From positions 1 through 21,092 of the IMG/VR virus record IMGVR_UViG_3300021963_000775: a stretch of DNA of 21,092 bases; one strand, written 5' to 3'. Each line of letters starts with the position of its first letter. Position 1 is the first letter of the stretch. Source of the DNA: a virus. The notes under the pieces are model-generated. The model saw only the letters and a list, made by a program, of their open reading frames with translations, searched no databases and was not told where the DNA came from. The position numbers and the translations under genes were made by a program. Shown piece after piece: positions 4,034 to 19,677 of this stretch.

Positions 4034-7000
4034 TTAAGCACCATATACATTTTTATTAGCTTGCTCTAAAATCTTAGCAAATCTCTTATCTAATTGCATT
4101 TCAAATTTAATCTGTCCGCCATATCCAACACCATCTTCTCTAGCAACAATAGTGGCAATAGGAATTACTCTACCTTTCTTACCAGCCTTATATGCTAAGT
4201 ATGGGGGTTCTTCATCCGTTACAGCGAACAAACCTTGCTTTATTTCTTCAAAATCTGATGTTTGGAATATATTTTGTAAAATTGCTCTATCCAATGAATT
4301 AGCACCAATTGCCATAAATTCCTCACCTTCTCCAACTGCCTTTAATGGAAATTCTTCTCTAATGGCAGCTAACATACCTTGCTTTAATTTAGGATTAGTA
4401 CCCAATGCACTGATTACTGCTTTTTGATGTGCTTTGTGAGTATCTTGTACATCTTGTAGGTATTTCAATGCGCCTTTATCTCCTTTTTTAGCTAATACAG
4501 TGATTGCAGATAACATTACCTTATTAATATCTCTACTTCCTTTACCGGCTTGTAATTTATCTAATGCAGTTGGTAAATCTATGTTTTTAGATTTAACAAT
4601 TGCTTGAAATTCTGGGTCATTAGCTACCGCTGCTTGTAGTTTTTTAATATTAGCTGCACCAAAGGTTGCTAAAGCTTTTCTTTGATTTTTTGAATATACA
4701 TTTGGATTAATATCATCAGGAATATTCGGGTCCCACTCAAATAACTTTCCAGTTCCAGAGTTTAAGAAATTTACTGCAGTTGATTTTTTTAAAGATACTT
4801 CCGATAAAATCTCTTGCCCATCTTTAGTTTTTATTTTAAAATAGGCATCTGTTGAAAATCCTTTATTCTTTTTATAATCAGCCAATCCCATAGCTTCAAC
4901 TTCACCTTCAGTATCCCAACTACCGGCTTCGATTGTTGAACCAGGATATTCTCTTTGTATTGTATTTAAAATAGCTTTTCTATTATTCATAGCTGCTTTA
5001 ATCCAACTAGTACCTACAACTCTCTTACCTTCTGATTTTAAATCAGAATTTGCTGCTATTTGCTGCTTCTCATGTTCTAATAAAGAATTATAAAATATTT
5101 CAGCTTGTTTATCATCCAATGTAGTACCAATCATAGTCATCAATTCACCCGCTTGTGCCGAAATCTGCCCAGCTCCACCTGGCAAATCAGAGAAGTGTGA
5201 CCATTTTGCTGTTTGCGTATTTGCTTTAGTATTCATCATTCTTTCCAAAGCTTTTAAGTGTCTTGGTGGAACTTTTGAACCAGCAAATAATTCTTTTGGC
5301 AATTTATATGGTTTAGGTGGAGGTCCTATTTGGAATTTTTTATTTTTTTCTTCAAATTTAGAATCATCTGGTTGTTGCTTTTGAGTAAACTCTTTTGATT
5401 TCAAGGTATCTACCTTAGCAAGTGTTTTATCTTTACCACCGATTATTCTAGAACCTTTAGCTGGTTTAGTGGTTGTTGGTACTGGTTCTACTTTTGGTTG
5501 TGGTTTTTCTTTTCCTAATCTTTTTTGATATTCCGCATCGCCTGTAAACATATTCTGCGTTGATGCTTGCGGTTTAGTTTGTACTTTTTTAGCTTTAGGG
5601 TCTATGTGAGTACCGCCTTTTATAGCTTTATCTCTTGCTTGCTTAGTTTTAAAGTAAACAATTTTACCACTATCTTTAGCTCTTGCTGCTAGCTTAGGGT
5701 CACCCGTTGCTTCATCTATAAAGCCATAAATCATTTCTAACATTAACTCATCCGCTAATTGTAAATTTTCTTCTTTCATTTTTGGTTCTATTGGGGTTTC
5801 AATATTATCAGTTTCACCACTTTCTTTTTTCTTATTATATGAATCAACCATTTGCTCCATCATTTCAGGAGTGATTTCCATTTCTTCAATTCCTTTGGCA
5901 ATCATTTCAGCAAATTTTTCCATATTTGCATCCATTTCAGCTTCACCTTCCATATCAGCGAATAGTGCTGCTTTACCAGCTCCCTTTAAGATTGTTTCAC
6001 CAACAACGTGTGGTATAAACTCCATTGCTACGTGCTTACCAAATGCTGCCACACCATGCGATAATCCACCAAATGCTGCTCCAAAAACTGCCGTAGTTAC
6101 TACTTTAATAGCAACTGCTTTAAGTGCTTTCTTTTCGTGGCCTGTTAATTGTTCTCCTTTAAAGAATTTACCAACACCTTCCCCAGCTGCTTTGAATTCT
6201 TCAACTTCATGCTTAGCTCCTTTCTTAATTGCTTTCCAAGCCCCAGCTGCTTTATCTTTCAAAGCCTGTCCTAAACTTCTACGAGTTTCTGAACCAGGTG
6301 CTCCTTCGTTTTTCTCAAAGAATGCTTTTTCTTCCTTAGTCCAATTAGCTATTTTTTGTTTTACCTTATCAGTTAATTTTGGTGCTGATGTTGGTGTTGA
6401 TGGCGTTTCTTTATTTGCATCTGCTTTCTTAGCTGCAATACCCATATCTTCTGCAAACTTATTCGCCATTGGGATTGCATCTTTGATGTCTTGGTCCAAT
6501 ACCGTTGTTTTCATTTGGATTTGTTTGTCTGGGTTTTGTGCATTATATGCTACCACAGCTGCCCAACGATGATGTCCATCAATTACATATCCATCTCTAC
6601 TCACATATATTGGTGCGGTAATTTTTGGATGATTAGGGTCTTTCTCTAAAGCTCCCATCATACCAACTACCTTTGCCCCAACTAAATCTTTTTGTGTTGC
6701 TTTTAATTTATCAGCAGGTACTTCAGTTTGTAAAGTTTTAATACCTTTTTGTTTCAACATTTCTCTGAATACAGGCTCAGTATCAACTTCACCACTAGCA
6801 TCAGCATCCATTCCTGCCGCTTTACTGCCAGGTGCCGCATTTCCTTTGAATTGTGGCATCTCATCTCTTGGTATTCCTAAGTTATCATCACAATATAAGT
6901 TAGTACCCGGCACAGTCACATCACATAAGTTGATGTTTGGTGCAGGTTCTCCTTTAGCCTTTGCATCAGCTACTTGCTTTGCAACTTTATTAATATCAGT

Positions 7001-15424: not shown

Positions 15425-17803
15425 TTATGCTATTGCAAAGTTATTTCGTGTACTCTTATTAACCTGATTTGATACACCTGCTGTAACTTTTGCACCATCC
15501 ATATTTACTCCAATTTTACCACCAGCCATATCAGCTCTCAATCCTTTTAGTTCTGCTATTAATTGATTTATACCATTTGCATTAATTCCAGAATTACCAG
15601 CTCCCATCATACTACCAACTGCGTTAGCTGCCATACCAATTGGTGTCATTGATAACACATTTGATAATAATTCACTAGGAGATTTTGTTGCTATAAGTGT
15701 ATCAGCTGGATTTGTTGAAACTATTTTTCCATCTTGTACAACACCATCGTTAATGCTACCTGCATTTGATGATGCATCGGTTGCGCTTTTCAATCCACCT
15801 TTTTCTAATGAAGATACTGAGAAGTTGGTAACCGCCGCATCTGCTTGGCCTGCAAAATCAGAAACCGTATCAACTAAACTACTAACACCAGGTATTTTTT
15901 TCAATAACCACATAATACCATCAATAATAAATTGAATTGCTTTAGCTGCTATTTTTAATGGGAAGAATGCAAATTGTAATACAGGACCCAACATTTGAAA
16001 TATAGGAAGTAATGAACCACCAACAGATGCTAAAATACCTTTGAATGTATTTTCCATATCTGATATAGTAGATGCCATTTCTTTTTGAGCTGCTGCTTTT
16101 TGAACTTCCTGCATCAATTGTTCATCATTAATATTAGTTATATCTAAACCAGCATCTATTGCATCTTGCGCCTTCTTTTGTTCTTCTGTTGATAATTTAC
16201 TTAATTTTTCTTGAGTATTTAATTGCTTATTAATTTCCTCCACACTCATACCTGCTGCTTTAGCTAATTGCTGTTGTGTGAAATAATCTTTTTTACGGAA
16301 ATCACCACTTCTTTGAATTTGTGTAAGTGTTTCTTTATTAGCATCTGCAAGTTTACCCTCCATTGCTAATGCTCTTGCTCTACTTAAATTGAATTGACCA
16401 CCAACAAATGTTGCTGCTACCAATTCTTCTTCTATACCACCTTCAAAATCTAATAATTTTTCTGCTAAAGATACTTGTTGCTTTAACGAAGTACCCATTC
16501 TTTGAGCTTGTACTGCATTTTTTGTTAATGCAGTTAAATCTCCTTTAAAGAATGTTGATGCTGCTTCTGCATTTTCTGCAATATCTTTAATTACCTTTTT
16601 AGGAGCAACACCTGCTAACTTAGCCATATTTGCAGCTTGTTGTTGAACACTAGCCGCAGTTTGCTCTGATAAACCACCTACACTTTCAAATATATTTTGA
16701 ACTTTAGCTGCTTCTTCTGCACTAACTCCAAAATTTGTTTTCATTAGTGTAAGACTTGCAACAGTTGCTTCTGAATAGTTAGCTACTTCTCCAATTTCAT
16801 CTCTAAGTGCTTTCATTGTGTCGTATGCATCTTCCATAGATACACCAACAGTTCCAAAATTTTTAGCAATATTACTTGCCTTTTCATTCATGTCACCCAT
16901 CATTGAATTGGTGACACCAGTTTCTTTTCTAAAATCTTCACCTGCTTGCTCTAAATCCATAAAGTATTTAAGGCCAGCTACAATTGCACCAACTACTAAA
17001 GTTAAACCAGCAGTTGCTATTGCTGCTTGTAATCCGAATGCTCGGATTCCCATTATCATATTTTTGATACCACCAACTACACTTTGTAATCCAGAAGGAA
17101 GCATACCAACAATACCATTAGCTTGTTCAGATAACATATTATATCTCTCCTGCTGAGCTCTTATGTTTTCTCTCTGATTAAATAGTTGAGTTGCTAATTC
17201 TATTTCATCTTCTGCAAGTCCATTTAATGAATTTTGAAATTCAATTCTTCTTTGTTCAGATTCTGCAATTCCAAACATATTCATTCTAGCAGTATCTAAT
17301 GATTGAGCTTCTTCTAAATAAGAATCTTGAATTGCAGTTAAACTAGCAATTTTTTGGTCATTTATTACTCTATCTGCTTCTGATAAATTTAATTCATTTT
17401 CTTTTAAATCTAATATTTTTTGATTAAGAGATACTAATGTAGAGCCTCCACTTGCTTCAGCTCCAATCATTTCTTTCATTTTAGGGCTCAATTTAGATAT
17501 TGATGTTGCAAACCCTTCTTGAAGTTCTTTGTATTCGTCAGCTAATGTATTTCTTTGTTCTTCTAAAGCGTTAATTCTAGCTTGTCTTCTTTCATTATTT
17601 GCCAACGCCCTTTCTCTAACTTTGGCTTCTTGTTCAATAATCCCAAGAGCTATTTTACTACTAGCAACTCTATCTTCCATATCTTGCAATTCTTGACCAC
17701 TAAGAACTGCAGCAGCCTTTATCTGCTCGTTTAAACGAGTTTGTATTTCAGCTTGCTGTTGGAGTAATTGATTTAATTCTCTTTGATTTTTAGAATCCGC
17801 CAT
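15425..17803 (-). CDS. Tail tape measure protein
   Basis: This 792-residue protein sets tail length and is threaded inside the tube. The first 230 residues are glutamine/glutamate-rich coiled coil (ELNQLLQQQAEIQTRLNEQI). A hydrophobic segment lies at about 250-284 (AIATAGLTLVVGAIVAGL) and a longer one at about 598-640 (LPIFQMLGPVLQFAFFPLKI), as is typical of tape measures that enter the host membrane. In between is alanine-rich helix with many KLA and AQ repeats. At roughly 0.15 nm per residue the length predicts a tail near 120 nm, an inference from the helix rule. It lies between the 80-residue gene and the tube-end protein, as expected. Confidence 0.9.
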   Translation of the reverse strand: MADSKNQRELNQLLQQQAEIQTRLNEQIKAAAVLSGQELQDMEDRVASSKIALGIIEQEAKVRERALANNERRQARINALEEQRNTLADEYKELQEGFATSISKLSPKMKEMIGAEASGGSTLVSLNQKILDLKENELNLSEADRVINDQKIASLTAIQDSYLEEAQSLDTARMNMFGIAESEQRRIEFQNSLNGLAEDEIELATQLFNQRENIRAQQERYNMLSEQANGIVGMLPSGLQSVVGGIKNMIMGIRAFGLQAAIATAGLTLVVGAIVAGLKYFMDLEQAGEDFRKETGVTNSMMGDMNEKASNIAKNFGTVGVSMEDAYDTMKALRDEIGEVANYSEATVASLTLMKTNFGVSAEEAAKVQNIFESVGGLSEQTAASVQQQAANMAKLAGVAPKKVIKDIAENAEAASTFFKGDLTALTKNAVQAQRMGTSLKQQVSLAEKLLDFEGGIEEELVAATFVGGQFNLSRARALAMEGKLADANKETLTQIQRSGDFRKKDYFTQQQLAKAAGMSVEEINKQLNTQEKLSKLSTEEQKKAQDAIDAGLDITNINDEQLMQEVQKAAAQKEMASTISDMENTFKGILASVGGSLLPIFQMLGPVLQFAFFPLKIAAKAIQFIIDGIMWLLKKIPGVSSLVDTVSDFAGQADAAVTNFSVSSLEKGGLKSATDASSNAGSINDGVVQDGKIVSTNPADTLIATKSPSELLSNVLSMTPIGMAANAVGSMMGAGNSGINANGINQLIAELKGLRADMAGGKIGVNMDGAKVTAGVSNQVNKSTRNNFAIA

Positions 17804-17814
17804 TATTTAATTTA

Positions 17815-18057
17815 TTAATAATCTTTAGAAATTAACCCTAATGATTGATACCATTTGAATTTATCCGGCTTTTCTGACTTCATTTTTTGAATGTCACCCG
17901 CATATTTATTATTCATTTTTTTGAAATCTGCTTGTAATTTTTGCAATACCGGGTCATTATCTATTATATTTTGTATTTTTTCCGGAGTTCTTTTTACACC
18001 AAAAAAACTAAAAAATTCTTTAATATTACCTTTCGATATTTTATATTTTTTTGCCAT
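17815..18057 (-). CDS. Small lysine-rich protein between chaperone and tape measure genes
   Basis: This 80-residue basic protein starts MAKKYKISKGNIKEFFSFFGVKRTPEKIQNII and ends WYQSLGLISKDY. It has no signal peptide or membrane helix and looks helical. I do not recognise a family. It heads the operon that runs through the tape measure and baseplate genes to 10167, 27 nt behind a TATTTATA motif, and is separated from the tape measure by 11 nt. A tail assembly or tape-measure-coating role is plausible from position only. Confidence 0.65.
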   Translation of the reverse strand: MAKKYKISKGNIKEFFSFFGVKRTPEKIQNIIDNDPVLQKLQADFKKMNNKYAGDIQKMKSEKPDKFKWYQSLGLISKDY

Positions 18058-18104: not shown

Positions 18105-18149
18105 AAAAGTTAGGATTGTACCAGTATTTATCGGTTAATCCTAACTTTT
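18105..18149 (-). terminator. Terminator overlapping the end of the frameshift partner ORF
   Basis: A 13-bp stem (18149-18137 with 18117-18105, containing AGTTAGGATT) with a 19-nt loop is followed by a T-rich coding-strand run. The 5' arm encodes the last residues of the ORF and the stop codon (18130-18128) is in the loop. Confidence 0.8.
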
Positions 18150-18340
18150 GGTGATTTTTGAGTTGATGATTTTTTTACCTGCTCAGATTCACTTTTTTTA
18201 GCTTCTACTAACTTATTATAGTAAAAATTTCTTAAATATGTTGGCATTCGATATAAATCATATTGATTAAATCCGTTGCCATAGTAGCACATTTCAAATA
18301 TTTGATTGTGCAACGTTTTACTATGATTTGCTGCTAGGCC
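18128..18340 (-). CDS. Short second chaperone domain, probably made as a frameshift fusion
   Basis: From the T7 run onward this frame encodes about 70 residues (GLAANHSKTLHNQIFEMCYYGNG, split here as GLAANHSKTL then HNQIFEMCYYGNG). It continues FNQYDLYRMPTYLRNFYYNKLVEAKK and ends in a Lys/Ser-rich basic tail. The YYG...YDLYRMP...LRNFYYNKL pattern resembles the T-domain of phage tail assembly chaperones (lambda gpG-gpGT style). As a separate gene it would need a TTG start at 18313 or an ATG at 18292, with no ribosome-binding sequence. The frame has a TAA directly before the T7 run and stays open through the upstream gene's stop. Translation as a fusion to the gp26-type protein is therefore favoured. 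A homopolymer sequencing error is the alternative. Confidence 0.65.
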   Translation of the reverse strand, partial: GLAANHSKTLHNQIFEMCYYGNGFNQYDLYRMPTYLRNFYYNKLVEAKKSESEQVKKSSTQKSPKVRINR

Positions 18341-19079
18341 AAAAAAAGTTTACGGTCATACCGATAGGTGCCTCCTCCACCTCACCATCTTCGTGAGTAT
18401 AAGTGAATTTCATATCAACATCGGGAGATATACTTTTAACATATTCTCTGAATGCTCTACTATCTCTAGCCAACATACCATTTATGTATTTATTGATTGC
18501 CGATACAGTATTATCTCCGTTTACAGACGTAATCATATATCTTAATCTAGTTGTAATATCATATGATACATCTTTACTTAATTTTTCCAAAGCAGTTATA
18601 TCTCTTTCTATTGCTTTTTCATCACCATGTGTTAATAACTTAAATGTAAGTTTTGCACCACTTGGTGTTGTAAATTCAAATTCATTTTTATTTTTAAAAA
18701 TAGATAAATCTACTTCTTTTATTTGAACTTTTGATAAATCAACTACTGAATTTATACTTTTTCCTGCTTTTGATGAATAAAATGATATTTCATATTCAGG
18801 CCCATATCCTAAAAGACGTGTTGCCAATACTATTGCATTTTTATCACCTAAAATAATATCATCAGGATTGATTGAATCTAATATAATTGATTCAAATAAT
18901 TTATCCAATACGATACCTTTTTTAATAAGATTTTGTGATGCTAAAATATCCTCCTCTTTAGCAGTCATATGTTTAATTGTAATTTGCCCAGAAGATAATG
19001 GGTGTTCTTTTGGATATGCCAATCCTTTTGATGGTAAATCCAATACTTCCGTTGGGAAATCATATTGTTTTTCGTTCAT
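18321..19079 (-). CDS. T4 gp26-type baseplate hub / tail assembly chaperone protein
   Basis: This 252-residue protein has the hallmark opening of the T4 baseplate gp26 family: YDFPTEVLDLPSKGLAYPKEHPL (read as YDFPTEVLDLPSKG, LAYPKEHPL), followed by ITIKHMTAKEEDILASQNLI, then GDKNAIVLATRLLGYGPEYE. Family knowledge places these proteins in hub assembly beside the tube and tape measure genes, as here. The C-terminus reads GMTVNFFWPSSKS before TAG, and the FFW codons lie on the T7 run where a +1 or -2 slip would extend the protein into the next frame. It is preceded by a TATTTATA motif (27 nt) and follows the tail tube terminator. Confidence 0.85.
   Translation of the reverse strand: MNEKQYDFPTEVLDLPSKGLAYPKEHPLSSGQITIKHMTAKEEDILASQNLIKKGIVLDKLFESIILDSINPDDIILGDKNAIVLATRLLGYGPEYEISFYSSKAGKSINSVVDLSKVQIKEVDLSIFKNKNEFEFTTPSGAKLTFKLLTHGDEKAIERDITALEKLSKDVSYDITTRLRYMITSVNGDNTVSAINKYINGMLARDSRAFREYVKSISPDVDMKFTYTHEDGEVEEAPIGMTVNFFWPSSKS
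18341..18347 (-). promoter_or_regulatory. Candidate programmed frameshift site (T7 run)
   Basis: The coding strand is AAC TTT TTT TGG in the gp26-type frame, with seven T residues. The +1 frame has its last stop (TAA, 18352-18350) immediately upstream and remains open past the zero-frame TAG (18323-18321). The slip must therefore occur in a window of about 26 nt, and the T run is its only homopolymer of that length. Confidence 0.55.
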
Positions 19080-19188: not shown

Positions 19189-19677
19189 TTAGAATTCTAA
19201 GATTGCGTAATCGTAAGTTAATGTTAATTCTATTGTTGCAGGTTCATTAGAATCAAACGATAAATCACCAAAGTTAGCCTGACCTATATATGCACCTTTT
19301 AAAGTCCATTGTTCAATCTTATCACCAACAGGTCCTAACATATAGAATGTGATATCTTTCTTATAGAAGTCAGCGTATCCATCTCTACCAGTTATTGATT
19401 CATGTCCTAAACGAATCCAGTCCATTACCGCTTGTGCTGCTGAAGGAACAATTGGGTCATAAAGCGTAATTGTAATATCTTGCCAATCTCCTTTTCCTTT
19501 CAACTTTCTTTTAACGTTGATGTGGTCTAATACAATAGGTTCAAATTGAATTGAAGGTCTATTTGCTGCCTTTACAAGATATGAAGGGATATTTTCAATC
19601 TCCATCACATATCTATTTTTCATCTTCGGTTCGAAGTTCGTATAGAACATCTTATCAAACTCTAATATTTCTGCCAT
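19189..19677 (-). CDS. 19: Tail tube protein (T4 gp19 family)
   Basis: This 162-residue protein forms the inner tube inside the sheath. It shows the gp19 pattern throughout: FEPKMKNRYVMEIENIPSYL (about 15-34), ANRPSIQFEPIVLDHINVKRKLKGK (38-62, written as ANRPSIQFEP then IVLDHINVKRKLKGK), WQDITITLYDPI (65-76), VMDWIRLGHE (84-93), and the C-terminal beta strands GAYIGQANFGDLSFD and IELTLTYDYAIL. The length is typical (T4 gp19 is 163 residues). It has its own TATTTATA motif 22 nt upstream, an AAGGA sequence before the ATG, and a strong terminator behind, so it can be made in large amounts independently of the sheath. Confidence 0.95.
   Translation of the reverse strand: MAEILEFDKMFYTNFEPKMKNRYVMEIENIPSYLVKAANRPSIQFEPIVLDHINVKRKLKGKGDWQDITITLYDPIVPSAAQAVMDWIRLGHESITGRDGYADFYKKDITFYMLGPVGDKIEQWTLKGAYIGQANFGDLSFDSNEPATIELTLTYDYAILEF

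Follow-up and report, generated by a model that had tools for sequence, protein, structure and literature searches.

A T4-type tail assembly chaperone gene of a contractile-tail phage very probably produces a short and a long protein by means of a conserved, programmed +1 frameshift. The gene lies on the minus strand of a 21,092-base IMG/VR virus record, referred to here as the window. Its 252-codon, gp26-family open reading frame (ORF; 19079-18321) reads in frame through a run of seven Ts as TTT TTT TGG and stops shortly afterward (5'-ATG ACC GTA AAC TTT TTT TGG CCT AGC AGC AAA TCA TAG-3'). An initial annotation of this DNA had described the same reading through FFW to a stop, but it gave the distance as 18 nt; in fact 17 nt separate the T7 run (18347-18341) from the 0-frame TAG (18323-18321). 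It had also described the +1 frame as shut by a TAA just before the run and open after it, and this is what we find: the TAA is at 18352-18350, and beyond the run the frame is open until the stop at 18130-18128. Past the slip Phe it encodes GLAANHSKTLHNQIFEMCYYGNGFNQYDLYRMPTYLRNFYYNKL..., 70 codons in total. Because the TAA closes the +1 frame, the T domain cannot start upstream in its own frame. The sole start-like codon ahead of the conserved block of the T segment is TTG at 18313-18311, for which no ribosome-binding site was seen in the window sequence, in agreement with the earlier view that the downstream ORF lacks a credible start. The features of the locus, with the evidence for each, are as follows.

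18321-19079, minus strand: gp26-family ORF encoding the short form (TAC-N), 252 aa (PF12322, phrog_150, AlphaFold2 model)
18341-18347, minus strand: T7 run; the proposed slip codon is the second TTT (18344-18342) and the next codon is TGG (sequence; UUU-Y in 106/106 relatives)
18128-18340, minus strand: T domain, 70 codons in the +1 frame plus the stop, which would complete a 316-aa long form (TAC-NC) (reading frames, dN/dS)
18321-18323, minus strand: TAG, the 0-frame stop (sequence)
18350-18352, minus strand: TAA closing the +1 frame before the T7 run (sequence)
18371-18383, minus strand: purine block GAGGTGGAGGAGG, upstream of the slip codon (SD-like 5-mers in relatives, codon simulation, GAG bias)
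18348-18350, minus strand: AAC codon preceding the T7 run (third base C or G in 92% of relatives)
19189-19677, minus strand: tail tube gene (gp19 family), the upstream neighbor (phrog_4542, 6e-30; PF06841, 2e-7)
15425-17803, minus strand: 792-aa ORF in the tape measure position, the downstream neighbor (position and length, as for the annotated tape measure genes of immuto and SP-15)

The gp26-family ORF matches PF12322 (T4_baseplate) with 28.2 bits (cutoff 24.5) and phrog_150 at 6.4e-9. It is placed between the tail tube gene (phrog_4542, PF06841) and the 792-aa ORF in tape measure place, which had no significant family match of its own. In Flavobacterium phage immuto and Bacillus phage SP-15 the homologue likewise has an annotated tape measure gene on one side and, on the other, an annotated tube gene (labeled "tail completion" in immuto). 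The slot between tube and tape measure genes is the usual site of a tail assembly chaperone. We infer that the gene most likely encodes a tail assembly chaperone of the gp26/gp51 family. This description is preferred to the earlier label of a T4-type baseplate gene. An 80-aa ORF that separates the T domain from the tape measure ORF (17815-18057) had no family match.

Structures were predicted by folding the short form and gp51. When the AlphaFold2 model of the short form (pLDDT 89) was compared with a library of solved structures, the top row was the HK97 tail assembly chaperone 2ob9, a weak match (Z 4.9, 79 residues, rmsd 4.4); by Foldseek the match to the HK97 chaperone was also weak (E 0.54). 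VIA-align of the gp51 model listed no chaperone, and no match to solved structures was found by sequence. The short-form and gp51 models have predicted helices and strands in similar order, the gp51 model has three extra helices at its end, and both models match the same predicted baseplate hub assembly proteins.

The T4 proteins gp26 (208 aa) and gp51 (249 aa) match PF12322 at 8.8e-64 and 3.9e-52, respectively, and their families align over the core at 99.4% probability. By sequence they are paralogues, with gp51 carrying a C-terminal extension of ~47 extra residues. Coverage of phrog_150 extends to position 235 for gp26 and to 280 for gp51. When the +1 segment was added to three of the relatives (L140, L164 and L167), the end of their phrog_150 match moved from 226-233 to 274-279, with a gain of 3-5 bits. 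The T domain of another relative (L231) alone matches phrog_634 (E 4.8e-4), which gp51 matches at 1.2e-23. The window's own T domain alone gave no significant family match, a result counted against the model, and its probable correspondence to the gp51 extension rests on these relatives. By hhalign, the T domain and the gp51 C-terminus were collinear but weakly aligned (P 0.01), and direct comparison of the fusion profile with T4-like gp51 and gp26 alignments returned nothing; the link to T4 therefore rests on PF12322, phrog_150 and phrog_634. Together with the models, this family evidence suggests that the short form corresponds to gp26 and the fusion, with its extra C-terminal helices, to gp51. 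The two systems differ in that T4 uses no frameshift and has its two paralogous genes on opposite strands, whereas here a single gene would serve through a +1 shift.

Relatives of the gene were collected by scanning IMG/VR with the window protein (80 loci) and by an alignment-based scan (80 loci, identity down to 46%); these loci, cultured phages and other phage records gave a set of 106 sequences that are over 5% apart in DNA. Every one of these 106 non-redundant relatives carries the T domain in the +1 frame. The same +1 layout was present in 10 of 10 metagenome-bin loci that were found later and collected after the pattern was fixed. The initial proposal of a probable programmed frameshift, from a gp26-type ORF into one resembling a T domain, is supported by this layout. 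The relatives were also checked for one continuous gene and for a second ORF with an ATG and ribosome-binding site of its own, either of which had been named beforehand as speaking against that proposal, and neither was seen. Past the site, the +1 frame stays open for a median of 73 codons, versus 3 and 5 for the other two frames; given this difference and the uniform layout, the arrangement exceeds chance. Most of the named metagenome bins are Bacteroidota (Flavobacteriales, Saprospiraceae, Winogradskyella) and two are archaeal, bin names being merely suggestive of hosts; the host of immuto is Flavobacterium. A scan of viral contigs with the SP-15 protein returned SP-15 alone.

The T domain is under purifying selection in the +1 frame only. 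With the first ten codons left out, its median pairwise dN/dS is 0.19 in this frame and 1.0 and 1.8 in the others, and the corresponding values for the clade with TTT TTT TAC sites are 0.25 versus 0.97 and 1.33; these figures are descriptive, being drawn from related sequences rather than from independent tests.

All 106 sites contain an in-frame UUU followed by U or C, so that, by standard pairing, tRNA-Phe can move forward by one base onto UUU or UUC. The site codons are TTT TTT TGG in 74 relatives, TTT TTT TAC in 22 and TTT CTT TGG in 4, with one case each of TTC TTT TAC, TTC TTT CGT, TTT CTA TTC, TTT TTT AGT, TTT TTT CAC and TTT TTT TTC. At the TTT CTT TGG sites the slip codon may be either UUU-C or CUU-U. 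The codon in the A site is TGG or TAC in 101 of 106 relatives, as a rule a sense codon, which was counted against the model. Of the two Phe codons at the site, one is TTT in 47/47 alignment rows and the other in 45/47, the rest being CTT; at other conserved Phe columns of the gene, TTT is mixed with TTC or Tyr codons.

The initial annotation had left the direction of the slip as +1 or -2. A programmed -2 shift at the T7 run, of the kind known in phage Mu (PMC5009743), would move the P-site tRNA-Phe back two bases, reach the same frame and give a product one residue longer. The predicted tryptic ends at the junction of the window, within the peptide after SISPDVDMK, are NFFWPSSK in the 0 frame, NFFGLAANHSK after a +1 shift and NFFFGLAANHSK after a -2 shift; those of immuto are VSFLGLTPEYR (+1 on CUU), VSFFGLTPEYR (+1 on UUU-C) and VSFLFGLTPEYR (-2). 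Strict -2 re-pairing is possible at 99 of the 106 sites, including that of the window, but fails at seven (the four TTT CTT TGG sites, TTC TTT TAC, TTC TTT CGT and TTT CTA TTC), each of which keeps a T domain in the +1 frame. A first-position G-U pair could still permit a -2 shift at the four TTT CTT TGG sites. T runs at the site reach 7 in 94 relatives, 8 in 3, 6 in 2, 4 in 1 and 3 in 6, and none of the seven sites that fail strict -2 pairing has a run longer than 4; the homopolymer is therefore dispensable. Together, the pairing failures and the short runs argue against both -2 shifting and polymerase slippage. The natural site variants thus favor +1 over -2 and point to programmed +1 frameshifting, and we regard a -2 shift as improbable.

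Alternatively, the T domain could be a separate small protein, with a start of its own or made by re-initiation after the gp26 stop. Small hypothetical CDSs are indeed annotated over the T stretch in immuto, SP-15 and Mel-JY01, and in the huge phage LR756511 (L087, around 3760), a distant relative, the T domain occupies the -1 frame and the gp26 stop is overlapped by an ATG, an arrangement in which the domain may be a separate, coupled gene. Against this, the first +1-frame ATG in most relatives is at least 16 codons past the slip, inside the conserved domain and at a variable position, and the immuto sequence has no ATG, GTG or TTG ahead of the conserved block. A separate start would also leave the conservation of UUU-Y at the end of gp26 unexplained, and in T4 gp51 the short-form core and the T part are made as one protein. 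In the absence of a consistent start among the relatives, an independent start for the T ORF was rejected, and we consider a separate protein highly improbable. The records of immuto, Mel-JY01, RM378, SP-15, LIS04 and GXN1 have no joined feature at this gene. The records examined name the gene a baseplate hub and either omit the T part or enter it as a small hypothetical protein, an annotation that a +1 frameshift would correct.

Least probable of all is that RNA polymerase slips on the T7 run or that the run is a sequencing error, in which case some or all mRNA would carry T6 and encode one continuous protein: the run is a homopolymer and T6 would yield exactly the +1 product, but the same T7 occurs in many independent metagenomes and in cultured phages, the 106 and 10 relatives with the same domain in the +1 frame exclude an error, and the seven relatives that retain the +1 layout with no T run above 4 led us to reject transcriptional slippage as a general mechanism.

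In the programmed +1 frameshift that we propose, most ribosomes would make the 252-aa, gp26-like short form. Some would pause while their P-site tRNA-Phe is on UUU and the following codon (UGG here) has yet to be decoded; the tRNA would then re-pair one base forward, from UUU to UUU, and translation would continue in the +1 frame through the helical T domain, giving the 316-aa long form. We infer both the ribosomal shift and its rate. If lambda G/GT is a guide, the tape measure protein would be coated by the short form, and the long form, the rarer of the two, would use its T domain to recruit tail tube subunits.

Nucleotide signals were also found near the site. C or G immediately precedes the T run in 92% of relatives, in a gene whose third positions are ~18% GC. 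Where the codon before the run encodes Gly, it is GGG in 29 relatives and GGC in 5, versus 6% for each elsewhere. A C or G at this position possibly avoids T8, which would create the -1 heptamer U UUU UUU. Some 26-30 nt upstream of the slip codon is a GAGGAGG-like purine block, which in the window reads GAGGTGGAGGAGG (18383-18371). This block contains SD-like 5-mers in 85/106 relatives versus 2.6% of other sequence windows, and a synonymous-codon simulation that held the amino acids gave a mean of 12.6 and a maximum of 22. Glu at codon -11 is GAG in 82/89 cases versus 17% elsewhere. In the immuto-like phages the block is GGAGGGG and encodes other amino acids; it therefore seems that the nucleotides of the block are selected. 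Its distance is outside that of known SD-like stimulators, being too far upstream. We tentatively suggest, as a rather doubtful possibility, that the purine block and the C or G before the run form a long-distance +1 stimulator of a new kind, acting perhaps through the anti-SD of either the shifting ribosome or one that trails it in Bacteroidota. Bacteroidota ribosomes normally rely little on SD pairing. No classical frameshift stimulator was found, which was counted against the model; RNAalifold, which covered pseudoknot-free folds, gave no conserved downstream fold among the relatives. A small upstream hairpin (AUCCC-N4-GGGAU) is confined to the TTT TTT TAC clade and may follow from coding.

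The expression logic foreseen in the initial annotation, that of lambda G/GT, would hold except for its direction. As in the tail assembly chaperone frameshift of lambda (Xu, Hendrix and Duda 2004; reviewed in PMC5009743), a single gene, located between the tube and tape measure genes and with its T domain out of frame, would yield both a short and a long form. The second ORF overlaps out of frame, lacks its own start and is conserved as protein, and the slippery site is conserved within the overlap. Lambda shifts by -1 and its protein has no detectable sequence similarity, whereas here the shift would be +1 at UUU-Y in a contractile-tail phage. The lambda-type arrangement places the T domain in the -1 frame behind an X XXY YYZ heptamer; in the window and its 106 relatives the domain is in the +1 frame instead.

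In bacterial prfB, a +1 frameshift occurs at CUU UGA, where a stop codon occupies the A site and an SD element lies 3 nt ahead of the slip codon. The present sites would share +1 re-pairing of the P-site tRNA, and the immuto-type site has CUU U; they are not of the prfB type, having a sense codon in the A site and the SD-like block 26-30 nt upstream. Influenza A PA-X also arises by a +1 shift on UUU followed by C (UCC UUU CGU; PMC3498833), although on a eukaryotic ribosome and in an unrelated gene. In Streptococcus phage vB_SagM-GXN1 (L084), the gp26 ORF ends near 4690-4720 with the site TTC TTT CGT, and its UUC UUU CGU contains the UUU CGU of PA-X.

Shifts of -1, -2 or +1 have precedents in tail genes, including a likely +1 shift in a tail gene of another myovirus, the haloarchaeal HSTV-2 (PMC5009743). 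In T4-like phages, the gp26/gp51 chaperone pair has been published as two paralogous genes (Vladimirov, Gautam and Davidson 2022, as cited in PMC10885494 and PMC12846349), and poly-T -1 signals are known in their TAC-N genes (PMC12846349, citing Vladimirov et al. 2022). We found no gp26-family chaperone made by +1 frameshifting in the literature searched; Vladimirov et al. 2022 may already describe some. On sequence grounds, +1 shifting at UUU-Y would be a new variation on the known G/GT mechanism, and one family joins that mechanism with the T4-type chaperone pair. More than 100 natural sites are thereby available for +1 frameshifting at UUU-Y, which is far less studied than -1 shifting.

The gp26-family gene of the distantly related Agrobacterium phage Atu_ph07 (L235, around 2780) carries its T-like domain in the -1 frame, next to TTT TTC, and the direction of the shift thus seems to vary among lineages of the family. 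The two forms would arise by a +1 shift here, probably by a -1 shift in Atu_ph07, and from two paralogous genes in T4. Elsewhere in the window, a 280-aa ORF (1916-2758) has, by reading, the look of a chitinase-like endolysin with a peptidoglycan-binding domain.
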